From Sutcliffiella horikoshii DSM 8719 (GTDB taxonomy: Bacteria > Bacillota > Bacilli > Bacillales > Bacillaceae_I), in contig LQXN01000063.1 in the NCBI GenBank assembly GCA_001648575.1, forward strand, positions 124,001 to 188,000: a stretch of DNA of 64,000 bases, in the 5' to 3' direction. How positions within the stretch are numbered: position 1 is the stretch's first letter; the number at the start of each line of letters is the position of its first letter. The position numbers and the translations under genes are program-made. This document shows positions 6,098 through 59,000 of the stretch, piece by piece. The notes under the pieces were generated by a model. That model had not been told where the DNA came from, did not search any database, and saw only the letters and a program-made list of their open reading frames with translations.

Positions 6098-6144
6098 AGA
6101 TAAAAAAGTGAAGGGGGTTTCCCTCTCTTACTTTAAAGTGTTAA

Positions 6145-6199
6145 AAAGGGGTCTGACCCCACTTACGTTAATTCGTTAAAGTGGGGTCAGACCCTTTTT
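6145..6199. terminator. shared terminator built on GGGGTCTGACCCC palindrome
   Basis: A long inverted repeat: AAAGGGGTCTGACCCCACTT (6145-6164) pairs with AAGTGGGGTCAGACCC and a T tract up to 6199. Each arm itself contains the self-complementary GGGTCTGACCC. It lies between the convergent rsfA and lipL genes and can serve both. Confidence 0.8.
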
Positions 6200-10258: not shown

Positions 10259-10368
10259 TAAAGGGGTCTGACTTTTGCTGTGTGTTGGTAATGCATTAAC
10301 GCACAGCGGGTCAGACCCCTCTTTACTTTGTTACCGAATTAACGCACAGCGGGTCAGACCCCTTTTAC
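10259..10368. repeat. compound GGGGTCTGAC inverted repeat with tandem partial copy
   Basis: AAAGGGGTCTGAC (from 10260) pairs with GTCAGACCCCT ending at 10320, with a second internal pairing GCTGTG / CGCACAGC. The right half, starting ATTAACGCACAGCGGG, then occurs a second time 43 bases on (10295-10319 and 10338-10362). The unit ends at the ywdK stop codon and could terminate gerQ. Confidence 0.75.
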
Positions 10369-11222: not shown

Positions 11223-11330
11223 GTAAAACACCTCCATTACTTACTGGGGTGTTTATAGTTTAAGTTACATCGCCGTTTTTAGTATGGTAAGTTGTGGTGC
11301 ACTCAGCACTTTAACTCTTTAATAACATAA

Positions 11331-11349
11331 AGAGGGGTCTGACCCCTCT
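11331..11349. repeat. perfect GGGGTCTGACCCC palindrome
   Basis: AGAGGGGTCTGACCCCTCT is an almost perfect 19-base palindrome that abuts the stop codon of ywdI (11351), with TTA-rich sequence after it. It is another copy of the dispersed GGTCTGACC element and could stop ywdI transcription. Confidence 0.8.
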
Positions 11350-18696: not shown

Positions 18697-18754
18697 TGTG
18701 GACTGGTGGGATTTTTGGGGCTTGTGTACAACAATGTTTCGCGGAATCCCGGTT

Positions 18755-18868
18755 TATCCATTGTAAAATGAATATATCCATTGTAACTGGTCATTTATCC
18801 ATTGTTAATTGCAGATATCCATTGTAACCGGACACTTATCCATTGTTAATTAAATATATCCATTGTAA
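18755..18868. repeat. 20/21-bp phased array (TATCCATTGT core)
   Basis: Six copies of TATCCATTGT start at 18755, 18775, 18796, 18816, 18837 and 18857, so the steps alternate 20, 21, 20, 21, 20. The 10-11 bases between cores vary. It lies between two terminators, in the convergent gap of the cyclase gene and gndA. Confidence 0.9.
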
Positions 18869-18901
18869 CCAACTAAACTCTAAAAGCCAGACCCCACCAC
18901 A

Positions 18902-29235: not shown

Positions 29236-29263
29236 AAACACCCTCTTTTATCGGAGGGTGTTT
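29236..29263 (+). terminator. terminator of the BCCT gene, left flank of repeat element
   Basis: AAACACCCTC and GAGGGTGTTT with an 8-base loop. The stem ACACCCTC/GAGGGTGT returns on the other side of the element at 29703, with a different loop. Confidence 0.85.
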
Positions 29264-29702
29264 CAGTGTGTAGACAAAGCTCAAATAATGAAATTCCCTA
29301 GTTGATCGCAGTGGAAGGCGCGTAGAATGCCGCGGGAGGAAGGGACAGGTAAGACCCCGCAATGAAGGTGGTCACTGAAAAACCCAGCAACTAAAATTTT
29401 TTTAAATTTCTAGCTGTTGATTGGAGCAATAGGCGAAGACTCCTGCGGGAGGATAGCGACATTCTTGAGACCCCGCAGGGCATAAGCCCGAGGAGGCTCA
29501 AGGTCGCCCTCTGGATAAGCGAAGCCGGTTGCGGAAATCAACAGCGGCAAGAACCAGATTATTAAAATAAAGTACTTTTTCTGTTGTCTTCAACGGAGTG
29601 AGGAGGCTTACGGACCGCCCGCTGGAAAGCGAAGCTCCTGCAACGAAGATCAACAGCAGGATGCAAATTTAAAAATATTTAGGGCTTTGTCAACAGTCTA
29701 TG
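29264..29702. mobile_element. terminator-associated repeat element, copy A
   Basis: The left end is TCAGTGTGTAGACAAAG (from about 29263) and the right end CTTTGTCAACAGTCTA, an imperfect inverted pair. The core is GC-rich and reads GTTGATCGCAGTGG... to ...AACGAAGATCAACAG; copies B and C have the same core. It is interrupted by a second repeat (29413-29545), so it is longer than its relatives. No protein is encoded. With the right hairpin it fills the gap of 621 bases before the next start codon. Confidence 0.8.
29413..29545. mobile_element. nested second repeat with 10-bp inverted ends
   Basis: A 133-base segment bounded by GCTGTTGATT and AATCAACAGC, with a GC-rich interior (GACTCCTGCGGGAGG, GACCCCGCAGGGC) that folds on itself. 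It sits inside copy A and breaks it in two. A shortened relative is at 42597-42628. Confidence 0.75.
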
Positions 29703-29730
29703 ACACCCTCTTTAAAGAGAGGGTGTTTTT
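29703..29730 (+). terminator. duplicate hairpin at the right flank of copy A
   Basis: ACACCCTC / GAGGGTGT, 8-base loop TTTAAAGA, then TTTTT. The stem equals that of the BCCT terminator at 29236, which supports duplication around the element. Confidence 0.8.
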
Positions 29731-35271: not shown

Positions 35272-35339
35272 GATGAGCACCTCATTTTCCTTTTGAATAT
35301 TGGTTTGTAATCTTCAGCTATTCTTTGTAGACGTGGTCT

Positions 35340-35700
35340 AATCCATTGTGGCGGTAGGGTTATCCATTGTACGGGTACGGTTATCCATCCTAGACGGGGG
35401 TTATCCATTGTACGGATACAGTTATCCATCCTAGACGGGGGTTATCCATTGTACGGATACGGTTATCCATCCTAGACGGGATTTATCCATTGTACGGACA
35501 TGGTTATCCATCCTAGACGGGATTTATCCATTGTACGGGTACGGTTATCCATCCTAGACGGGATTTATCCATTGTACGGATATGGTTATCCATCCTAGAC
35601 TGGGGTTATCCATTGTATGTGTACGGTTATCCATCCTTCCGGCCAACTTATCCATTGTAAAATCGTTTTATCCATCCTACCCGGGATCTATCCATTCTTG
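35340..35700. repeat. 20/21-bp phased array in the sacP leader
   Basis: Seventeen TATCCAT cores lie at 35361, 35382, 35402, 35423 and so on to 35689, with steps of 21 and 20 that alternate for nearly the whole array. The cores alternate TATCCATTGTA and TATCCATCCTA, so the true unit is a 41-base dimer. A degenerate copy starts at about 35339. The array is within the predicted transcript between the RAT-controlled terminator and the sacP ribosome site. Confidence 0.92.
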
Positions 35701-37541: not shown

Positions 37542-38423
37542 TCAATACGTAAGCGTGCCTTTTACTAGCTTTTCCCAGTCTGGATAGAGATCATTGCGGC
37601 GGTCTCTCCAGGTTGTCACGGATCCACTTTCTCTGACTTTATAGAGAAGGGCCAAATCCAGGTCTCCTGTGATGATCATATCTGTGTTCAATTCTCCTTC
37701 TGCCACGATGCCGCGAGGGGGGAATGGAACGTCGTTTGGTGATATGATGGCAGCTTGTCCAAAGTTTCCGCGCATGAAATCAACTGTCGGCAGGGAGCCG
37801 ATCGTTCCTGTCGTCACGACATAGATTTGATTTTCTATCGTACGTGCGTGACAAGAATAGCGAACGCGGTGAAAGCCATGTCGGTCATCTGTGCAGGAAG
37901 GACAGAATACCACATCCGCACCCATTGCCTTCACAAGCCTTACTGCTTCCGGGAATTCGATGTCATAGCACGTAAGCATCGAAATTGTACCAAAATCGGT
38001 ATGGAAGATCTTCAGGTCCTCACCAGGGGTCAGACCCCATTCATACACTTCTGTCGGTGTGAGGTGAAGCTTTGCCTGTGTTTCTATGCGTCCGTCCGGG
38101 TAAAACAGGTGGGCTGCGTTATAAAGTTTGCCTTCTTTTTCAATGATGTGTGTACCACCTATGATATGCATGCCTGTCTGGATGGCGATTCCACTGAACA
38201 ATTGGTGATAATGCTCGGTGTACTTCGGAAGGTCATGGATGGTCTGTTCTCTTCCGTCTACCGGAAAAGAAATCAGTTGTGTTGTCAAAAACTCAGGGAA
38301 CAGGACAAAATCCGCATCAAACTCAGCGGCAGTTTTCACATAATGAATGACTTGATTCGCAAATTCATCAAAACTTGAAATCGTATGCAATGGATATTGC
38401 ACAGCAGAAGCACGAAACTTCAT
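37542..38423 (-). CDS. carbon-nitrogen hydrolase (nitrilase superfamily)
   Basis: 293 residues. The Glu-Lys-Cys triad is visible: Glu in LFPEFLTTQ (about residue 43), Lys in QAKLHLTPTE and Cys in MLTCYDIEFPE. The family hydrolyses amides or nitriles; the substrate is not evident. The start is the ATG at 38423 after AAGGGGG. Oddly, codons for Gly-Leu-Thr-Pro (38028-38041) are spelled by GGGGTCTGACCCC, the dispersed palindrome. The promoter TTGAGC/TATAAT lies upstream. Confidence 0.9.
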   Translation of the reverse strand: MKFRASAVQYPLHTISSFDEFANQVIHYVKTAAEFDADFVLFPEFLTTQLISFPVDGREQTIHDLPKYTEHYHQLFSGIAIQTGMHIIGGTHIIEKEGKLYNAAHLFYPDGRIETQAKLHLTPTEVYEWGLTPGEDLKIFHTDFGTISMLTCYDIEFPEAVRLVKAMGADVVFCPSCTDDRHGFHRVRYSCHARTIENQIYVVTTGTIGSLPTVDFMRGNFGQAAIISPNDVPFPPRGIVAEGELNTDMIITGDLDLALLYKVRESGSVTTWRDRRNDLYPDWEKLVKGTLTY

Positions 38424-44759: not shown

Positions 44760-44902
44760 AAAACCTCTCGATAAGAAGAAGTTTGAGTATGATCCCGTAA
44801 CATCCACTTATCTCTCAAGAACGCTTGTCTTGCTGGAATTGGCACCACTTGCATGGTTGCCGGGTTTCATAGGGCCAGTCCCTCCACCTCTCTTGATAAG
44901 AA
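44760..44902 (-). ncRNA. SAM-I riboswitch (S-box leader)
   Basis: On the minus strand the leader begins CTTATCAAGAGAGGTGGAGG and continues GACTGGCCC, ATGAAACCCGGCAACC, GTGGTGCCAATTCCAGC and GAGAGATAAG, the conserved SAM-I aptamer with its P1 to P4 stems. The aptamer covers about 44807-44902. The expression platform with ATCGAGAGG and a U tract ends at about 44760, 40 bases before the SfnG-like start. SAM binding should terminate transcription. Confidence 0.95.
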
Positions 44903-52583: not shown

Positions 52584-52604
52584 AATCAAAAAGGAATTTT
52601 GATT
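52584..52604. repeat. hairpin at the left flank of copy B
   Basis: AATCAAAA and TTTTGATT arms with a 5-base loop. The same 21 bases recur identically at 52814-52834 on the other side of the element. Confidence 0.85.
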
Positions 52605-52813
52605 CAGTGTGCAGACAAAGCTTAAAATAGTGAAATTCCCTAGTTGATCGCAGTGGAAGGAGCGAAGACTCCCGCGGGAGGAAGGGACATGTAAGACCCC
52701 GCAGGCGTAGCCGAGGAGGCTTACGGACCGCCCGCAGGAAAGCGTAGCTCCTGCAACGGAGATTAACTGTTCCAACCAATAACTTATCTGCTAGATAGTT
52801 TGTCAACAGTCTG
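52605..52813. mobile_element. terminator-associated repeat element, copy B
   Basis: Left end CAGTGTGCAGACAAAG, right end TTTGTCAACAGTCTG. The GC-rich core starts GTTGATCGCAGTGGAAGG and contains GACCCCGCAGG and GGCTTACGGACCGCCCGC. It is about 209 bases, without a reading frame, between the acetyltransferase pseudogene and the Lon-like gene. Both sides carry the same hairpin. Confidence 0.82.
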
Positions 52814-52850
52814 AATCAAAAAGGAATTTTGATTCAGACTGTTTTTTTCA
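52814..52850 (+). terminator. hairpin duplicate with T tract, right flank of copy B
   Basis: The stem CAGTCTGAATCAAAA (from 52807) pairs with TTTTGATTCAGACTG and is followed by TTTTTTT. The hairpin core is identical to that at 52584. Confidence 0.82.
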
Positions 52851-57917: not shown

Positions 57918-58024
57918 GTAAATCCCTCCGTTTTCGTTATCAACAATGTCATTTTAAACAGGGATTCTAACATCACTCTTATGAATTTCTTACAAAAATA
58001 TTAAATACGATTTTTCATACAAAA

Positions 58025-58055
58025 AGAGCGCATAGGATATGATCCCTTGCGCTCT
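58025..58055 (-). terminator. hairpin at the left flank of copy C
   Basis: AGAGCGCA pairs with TTGCGCTCT; on the minus strand a U tract follows. Twin of 58276-58306 with 29 of 31 bases equal, so this was probably the terminator of the two-component operon. Confidence 0.85.
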
Positions 58056-58275
58056 CAGTGTGTAGACAAAGTTATTTTTTCTTTGAGATATGCAAAAACT
58101 GTGTTGATCGTAGTGGAAGGCGCGCAGACTTCTGCGGGAGGAAGGGACAGGGAAGACCCCGCAGGGCGTAAGCCCGAGGAGGCTTCCGGACCGCCCGCGA
58201 AAAGCGAAGCGCCTGAAACGAAGATCAACAGCATGATGCAGATTTAAAAATATTTAGGGCTTTGTCAACAGTCTG
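58056..58275. mobile_element. terminator-associated repeat element, copy C
   Basis: Left end CAGTGTGTAGACAAAG, right end CTTTGTCAACAGTCTG. The core is bounded by GTTGATCG and CGAAGATCAAC, and internal arms GGCGCG/GCGCC and GACCCCGCAGGGC suggest a branched fold. 220 bases, no reading frame. It is the most complete copy. It splits the hairpin that follows the two-component operon. Confidence 0.85.
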
Positions 58276-58306
58276 AGAGCGCATAGGATATCATCCCATG
58301 CGCTCT
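58276..58306 (-). repeat. hairpin duplicate at the right flank of copy C
   Basis: AGAGCGCA pairs with TGCGCTCT. Only two of 31 bases differ from the left copy. It lies four bases before the response regulator stop. Confidence 0.85.
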
Positions 58307-58310
58307 TGGT

Positions 58311-59000
58311 TTATTGTTTAATTCTGTAGCCCACACCCCAGACTGTCTCGATATATTCCGGATGGGAGGGGTCTTGCTCGACTTTCTCCCTTAGTCTCCT
58401 GATATGAACAGTGACAGTCGATGCATCACCGAAAAAATCGAATCCCCATACCTGTTCCAGCAAATGCTCTTTACTGAAAACCTGATTCGGGGCTGATGCC
58501 ATCAATGCCAGTAAGTCGAACTCTTTTACCGTTAACACTTTCTCCTCATTGTTCACCATAACCCTCCTTGTGGAATGCTGGATGAACAACCCCCTCACTT
58601 TAATGTCTTCATGCTTAGGCTGTTCACGGGAGACAAGCCGGTCATATCTAGAAATATGAGCCTTTACCCTGGCGATTAGTTTATTGGGATTGAAGGGCTT
58701 TTCAATGTAGTCATCCGCCCCTTTTCCCAGTCCTCTAATCATATCTATATCCTCGTTTTTTGCGGTGACCATAATGATTGGAACATCAGACGTCTCACGC
58801 ATTTGCCTGCAAATCTCATAACCATCCATATCCGGCAGCATTATATCCAGGATCACTAACCTGTATGTTTCATCTCTAAATAAGCTCAGTCCCGCCTTTC
58901 CGGTTGCTGCAAGGTCCACTTCATAGCCGTTCAATTCAAGGTAATCGCGTTCTAGCTCAGCTATACTGATTTCATCTTCAATCACTAGTATCCTGTTCAT
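58311..59000 (-). CDS. OmpR-family response regulator
   Basis: 229 residues. The receiver domain has the phosphorylated Asp in VILDIMLPDMDG (Asp52), the acidic pair in LVIEDE and Lys in YIEKPF. The C-terminal winged helix is typical of OmpR/PhoB (TVTVHIRRLREKVEQDP, TVWGVGYRI). The ATG at 59000 overlaps the stop of the kinase gene (TGATG), so the two are translationally coupled. The kinase is translated first. Confidence 0.95.
   Translation of the reverse strand: MNRILVIEDEISIAELERDYLELNGYEVDLAATGKAGLSLFRDETYRLVILDIMLPDMDGYEICRQMRETSDVPIIMVTAKNEDIDMIRGLGKGADDYIEKPFNPNKLIARVKAHISRYDRLVSREQPKHEDIKVRGLFIQHSTRRVMVNNEEKVLTVKEFDLLALMASAPNQVFSKEHLLEQVWGFDFFGDASTVTVHIRRLREKVEQDPSHPEYIETVWGVGYRIKQ

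Follow-up and report, generated by a model that had tools for sequence, protein, structure and literature searches.

The dispersed GC-rich repeats of Sutcliffiella horikoshii occupy hairpins of the kind found in intrinsic terminators, in most cases a short distance past the end of a gene, and the whole palindrome of the hairpin is duplicated around them. With a probability of roughly 0.87, we regard them as non-autonomous, MITE-like derivatives of the IS1182 family whose target duplication is the complete palindrome of a terminator-type hairpin. Coding IS1182 relatives with like ends duplicate hairpins in the same manner, and whole-hairpin duplication is best read as the habit of a branch of this family.

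Three copies are present in the 64-kb stretch of DNA analyzed here (the window), at 29263-29701 (439 bp), 52604-52814 (211 bp) and 58055-58276 (222 bp), all on the plus strand and with their ends set by TCAG...CTGA. The ends TCAGTGTGTAGACAAAG / CTTTGTCAACAGTCTGA are common to all three with small changes, and each copy is flanked on both sides by a hairpin specific to its site. An earlier note on this DNA had described the same three copies, which are real; its coordinates are off by 1-2 nt, since the T and the A at the element's termini may equally be assigned to the hairpin. Its end motif has to be corrected for the 52.6 kb copy, where the left end is TCAGTGTGCAG and not TGTAG. The same hairpin on both sides, as it had proposed for each copy, is found identical at 52.6 kb and with 2 mismatches in 31 at 58 kb, while at 29 kb it applies to the stems only, the 8-nt stems being identical and the loops different.

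At 58 kb, hairpin comparison and folding place the left copy of the hairpin (GAGCGCA...TGCGCTC) at 58026-58054 with an A-tract outside, and the right copy at 58277-58305, beside the 3' end at 58311 of a minus-strand gene which, from reading its translation, we take to be response-regulator-like. The GC-rich structured core of this element (GTTGATC...GATCAAC), with covarying pairs, lies at 58103-58229 on the plus strand. The 52.6 kb element is enclosed by hairpin copies at 52585-52603 (ATCAAAAAGGAATTTTGAT) and 52815-52833. At 29 kb, the left copy (ACACCCTC...GAGGGTGT) lies at 29238-29261 and was folded as 29239-29262; the right copy, with the same stem, another loop and then a T-tract, lies at 29703-29726 and was folded as 29702-29726. 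The 29 kb element is composite, with a second GC-rich repeat of the CACTGAAAAACCC type nested inside from about 29370. Compared with shuffled sequences, folding is far more stable for the hairpins at 58 kb and 29 kb (z -4.5 to -6.0) and only modestly so for the A+T-rich hairpin at 52.6 kb (z -2.4). No formal terminator scan passed at the 58 kb site.

Some other features of the window were recorded. The stem of the right hairpin at 52.6 kb (window 52585-52840) can be extended into the right end of the element (CAGTCTG/CAGACTG) and is then followed by TTTTTTT; similar extensions into an element end occur at loci L071 and L006. Tandem 41-bp arrays built on TTATCCATTGTA lie at 35319-35687 and 18753-18875, and dispersed GGGTCWGACCC palindromes at 6131-6198, 10285-10366, 11317-11349 and 38009-38041. 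A SAM riboswitch (Rfam RF00162) is located at 44805-44902 on the minus strand.

The whole genome, a 4.68 Mb draft in 67 contigs, contains 233 matches to the end motif when up to 3 mismatches are allowed (many right ends are then picked up as well) and 4 matches to the reversed pattern. At least 112 elements with both ends were collected (a first set of 104 and loci added later), and the true number is probably higher. A total of 97 of the 112 are 200-229 bp long. The last 45 nt of the left flank were compared with the first 45 nt of the right flank, and a score above 14.5 was counted as a matching hairpin. This was reached by 101 of the 112 elements, so that most other copies have the flanking hairpin duplicates that the earlier note had seen in the window, and by 9 of 12,432 mismatched flank pairs, some of which probably come from tandem chains with a common hairpin. 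In the first set, 94 of 104 elements passed. Among these 94, no gap separates the repeat from the element on the left in 86 and on the right in 87, the length of the repeat on the right side ranges from 16 to 37 nt, and its mean fold energy is -12.7 kcal/mol compared with -2.3 kcal/mol for shuffled sequences.

Eleven of the 112 elements failed this test; in the first set, ten of 104 failed. Four of these ten have doubtful right ends (L008, L009, L050, L115) and five have eroded repeats with scores of 11-14 (L051, L068, L084, L085, L099). The remaining one, L071, carries two different and unrelated hairpins, which would fit a recombination between two insertions; a partner for such a reciprocal exchange was not found among the loci collected up to that comparison. 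Tandem chains of the form hairpin-element-hairpin-element-hairpin (e.g., L019, L026, L056, L120) point to repeated insertion at one terminator. Outside this genome, 31 loci of the genus and the order yielded 28 elements with both ends and three further L ends without a partner. The flank repeat score is at least 15 in 26 of these 28, a figure biased towards duplication since the right end was picked for the best flank match.

The position of the elements relative to genes was analyzed for those 99 of the 101 elements with duplicated flanks for which 600 nt or more of flanking sequence exist to the left and to the right, using open frames of at least 400 nt (stop to stop) that point at the element. 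The 3' end of such a frame lies within 75 nt of 80 of the 99 elements, compared with 89 of 1000 random window positions, and 21 of these 80 are located between convergent frames. The 8 nt outside the right hairpin copy are T-rich in 63 of the 94 passing elements of the first set and the 8 nt outside the left copy are A-rich in 59; at least one of the two is seen in 85. The target sites have the anatomy of intrinsic terminators, mostly an A-tract, a hairpin and a T-tract, and many are bidirectional. Element orientation was also compared with terminator direction, and no clear bias was seen (63 of 94 T-rich on the right, 59 of 94 A-rich on the left). Insertion into a target of the A-hairpin-T type leaves the T-tract with the right copy only and the A-tract with the left copy only. 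One complete terminator per direction, on the far side of the element, should therefore survive the insertion. Termination in both directions would thus be kept and the insertion would be nearly harmless, which would in turn permit more than 100 copies in one genome.

The two copies of a hairpin preserve a natural trace of how terminators were duplicated and then diverged. Of the ungapped repeat pairs in the first set, 35 of 86 are identical. Differences between the copies affect 42 of 1598 paired stem positions and 50 of 505 unpaired loop positions, a comparison in which local alignment may trim some stem differences, and the lower number in stems is consistent with selection keeping the stems. 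Compensating evolution of the copies is not supported: among 41 changed pairs, 16 pair in both copies and one is changed on both sides.

Empty sites were searched in relatives. The 52.6 kb site, approached through its neighbor gene, could not serve in the genus as its terminators are too diverged, and five elements with exact repeats were taken instead; the two flanks of each were joined and compared with the 15 other genomes of the genus. At all five sites, at least one relative lacks the element and has a single hairpin across the junction. The terminator at L122, AACAGGCCCTTACCGGCCTGTT, occurs once and unchanged in genome G013 and as variants in G012, G001 and G006, and the empty site of L040 has a full-length match in G012 only. 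Damaged elements are present in G015, the genome of another species, at two of the five tested sites (L328, L329) and may represent either shared or repeated insertions. A coding insertion sequence (IS) on the Listeria plasmid pLIS32 gives the same picture. The empty site predicted for it would hold one 21-bp hairpin and is matched at 450 of 450 positions by four sister plasmids, at 99.8% by one more plasmid and at 97.3% by another. A further thirteen records align at 89% as two pieces that together span 441 bp, which indicates that they are also without the IS; pLIS32 itself matches in part (20 records in all). The earlier note had expected one hairpin at empty sites, and this was found at 5/5 sites tested and, with 450/450, in four sister plasmids of pLIS32. 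Together with the duplication in 101/112 elements, the single hairpins bear out its reading of an insertion at a terminator-like hairpin with duplication of the complete stem-loop.

The elements encode no protein, as had been stated before, and a transposase is absent from the 211-222 bp copies. The genome has five matches to Pfam PF13751. One locus, L117, carries a broken IS1182-like gene between TCAGCTTGTAGACAAAG and the right end TTTGTCTACGGTCTGG, with related hairpins outside both ends, the left one shortened. An intact PF13751 transposase with these ends was not found in the genome; mobilization would take place in trans, and the family may be inactive there now. The search for a transposase with the same ends, which the earlier note had proposed, thus leads to the IS1182 family, although within this genome it yields only the broken copy.

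The MITE ends match those of IS1182-family ISs, and the TCAGNNTGTNGACAAA motif occurs at both ends of the coding ISs; in a Fictibacillus IS, the left end is TCAGCTTGTAGACAAAG and the right end GTTTGTCAACAGTCTGA. Coding relatives were searched with the 446-aa transposase of L160, and the best 79 of 384 loci were analyzed. Candidate ends, some of them spurious, were assigned in 72 of the 79, and the other seven have no recognizable ends. The flank repeat score is at least 14 at 64 of the 79 loci and in 8 of 5112 controls, a few of the 64 being spurious (runs of N at L281, wrong ends at L284 and L259). Exact abutting repeats of 17-50 bp were found in 55 of the 72, all 55 different from each other, and the other 17 have no exact abutting repeat. 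The terminal bases of these 55 repeats are complementary in 54, arms of at least 5 bp start from the foot in 51, and all begin with A or G. Bacillus sp. OV166, with 12 copies, and Neobacillus drentensis are among the hosts, and some Thermoanaerobacter copies also lie beside hairpins. All four transposases of coding relatives that were scanned exceed the cut-off of the NCBIfam IS1182 model (NF033551), one of them coming from a second branch, and Pfam likewise puts the four in IS1182. Among five plasmid ISs examined, a duplication is present in two; a Sutcliffiella horikoshii plasmid IS has the same end type and an exact hairpin duplication of 30 bp. The three without hairpin duplication are an ISEfa7 copy and the ISs of Peribacillus and Exiguobacterium mexicanum. 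A second IS1182-like branch (L177, L179, L176, L173) has transposases of 484-491 aa and ends near CACTGAAAAA. Its ISs lie inside or adjoining GC-rich repeats at L177 and L179, and an end resembling those of this branch (CACTGAAAAACCC) is nested in the 29 kb window copy.

The inner 127-bp core was found in at least 12 of the 16 genomes of the genus among the matches listed, often without the element ends; across the order, 54 of 101 sampled genomes contain it. Of 64 coding ISs, 27 carry the core in the leader that precedes the transposase gene and two others have it close to the 3' end. Sixteen diverse core copies share 29 pairs with 97.6% of cells paired, compared with 35-51% in slid controls, and 15 of the 29 pairs are changed on both sides, a level that none of 500 shuffles reached. 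G-U cells number 50 and A-C cells 18 in 135 distinct core copies, whose cells are not independent of each other; the excess of G-U indicates a role of one strand, as in RNA. The three window copies gave no match at gathering score in Rfam, and a permissive scan of 58000-58320 gave two matches, both far below the cut-off. The element had no match in the phage collection, and only partial matches to the core region, covering at most 62% of the query, in the plasmid collection. With its strong covariation, the core is a structured repeat in its own right, apart from mobility, and is carried as a structured passenger that also occurs in the leader of many full-length ISs. A mobilized element or a structured RNA had been suggested before; the core is indeed a separately conserved structure, but not an alternative to mobility. 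Its covariation suggests that many genomes of the order contain a structured element, one that matched no Rfam family in these scans.

Other explanations of the flanking hairpins were weighed against target duplication. Nearly every copy has hairpins directly at its ends, as would be expected if they were part of the element or protective terminators added later. Yet the hairpin is specific to each site, the 55 exact duplications in coding ISs are all distinct, and the same hairpin stands once at empty sites, which makes this origin extremely unlikely. A long and loose stagger near terminators, guided by their sequence (A-tract, GC stem, T-tract) without recognition of structure, would account for the A- or T-tract at 85 of 94 targets and for the A or G at the start of 55/55 exact coding-IS duplications. 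Sequence-guided staggers are normally fixed in length, whereas the repeat length varies from 17 to 50 and tracks the palindrome, with complementary terminal bases in 54 of 55, and we consider such a stagger unlikely. The elements might also be independent structured RNA genes that evolved beside terminators, and the core has both the covariation (15/29 pairs changed on both sides, 0/500 shuffles) and the surplus of G-U over A-C cells (50 vs 18) that an RNA would give. However, transposon-like ends, hairpin duplications and empty sites do not fit such genes, the core lies in the leader of 27/64 coding ISs, and it is also found without these ends; this origin is very improbable.

The target hairpin could instead have been replaced, with the second copy being the neighbor gene's own terminator. 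Such replacement is described for IS1272, a member of the same family (PMC5678879, PMC4923244). This outcome, with the target hairpin lost and nothing duplicated, is not what was found at the present elements: the same site-specific hairpin stands on both sides in 101/112 elements and in 64/79 coding relatives, and the empty site has one copy. Replacement is almost certainly not the explanation here.

Insertion with duplication of the complete palindrome is the reading retained, and the ends allow a mechanism to be proposed for it. TCAG...CTGA sits directly at the two feet of the hairpin, and exact duplications measure 16-37 bp in the repeats and 17-50 bp in the coding ISs. The 3' ends of the element would join at the hairpin's 5' foot on both strands of a cruciform, and gap repair after the joining would double the palindrome. 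Joining at both 5' feet followed by gap repair would give a duplication of hairpin length. The usual product of a DDE transposase is a short duplication whose length is fixed. A duplication that equals the hairpin in length over many independent insertions is difficult to account for unless folded DNA is recognized, and we infer that a cruciform is cut at its two 5' feet; symmetrical half-sites read by the transposase, or the RNA structure of the terminator, would look the same. On balance we lean slightly towards the fuller proposal, in which a branch of the IS1182 family has a DDE transposase that reads extruded hairpins, joins at the 5' feet and leaves a one-palindrome duplication, and its MITEs carry an undescribed covarying core present in roughly half of the genomes sampled from the order. 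If true, this would be structure-directed duplication of variable length, with an outcome opposite to that of IS1272. The old question of whether terminator palindromes are extruded in the cell would become directly testable.

The present repeats resemble the BOX and RUP elements of pneumococcus in being short, non-coding, dispersed, intergenic and MITE-like, and we know of hairpin-length duplications for neither of these. ISfinder lists variable direct repeats for the IS1182 family. The coding relatives agree with this family in the transposase model (NCBIfam NF033551), and the inverted ends are shared as well. Targeting of palindromes by some IS1182 members was noted by Siguier et al. in 2015, according to PMC5678879 and PMC4923244. 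In a 2025 paper (PMC12056078), recognition of a DNA structure is named as a possibility for IS1182 transposases, whose action may or may not involve duplication. ISSmi2 of Streptococcus mitis, which has no stop codon and makes no duplication (PMC2828477), is assigned to IS1182 (PMC10383233), and IS1272 also has no stop codon within the element (PMC4923244); whether this trait separates the replacing from the duplicating members is a lead only. IS1272 and TnSha1 of staphylococci share with the present elements and their coding relatives an IS1182-family transposase and stem-loop targets, often terminators, that lack a sequence consensus (PMC4923244, PMC5678879). They differ in that the stem-loop is deleted or replaced there, without target duplication in IS1272 (PMC5678879) and as a hairpin deletion in TnSha1 (Furi et al., PMC4923244), whereas it is duplicated whole in the present elements. 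In the paper listings and passages searched, which also covered PMC8297860, PMC9208149 and PMC3281130, with subscription journals, ISfinder and preprints lying outside the search, we found no whole-hairpin IS duplication besides a model in PMC5678879. In this model (Wan et al. 2017, Fig. 13, pathway b), joining of the ends at the 5' feet leads to duplication of the whole stem-loop. Pathway b was drawn there as a possibility, and the present elements are natural examples of that outcome.
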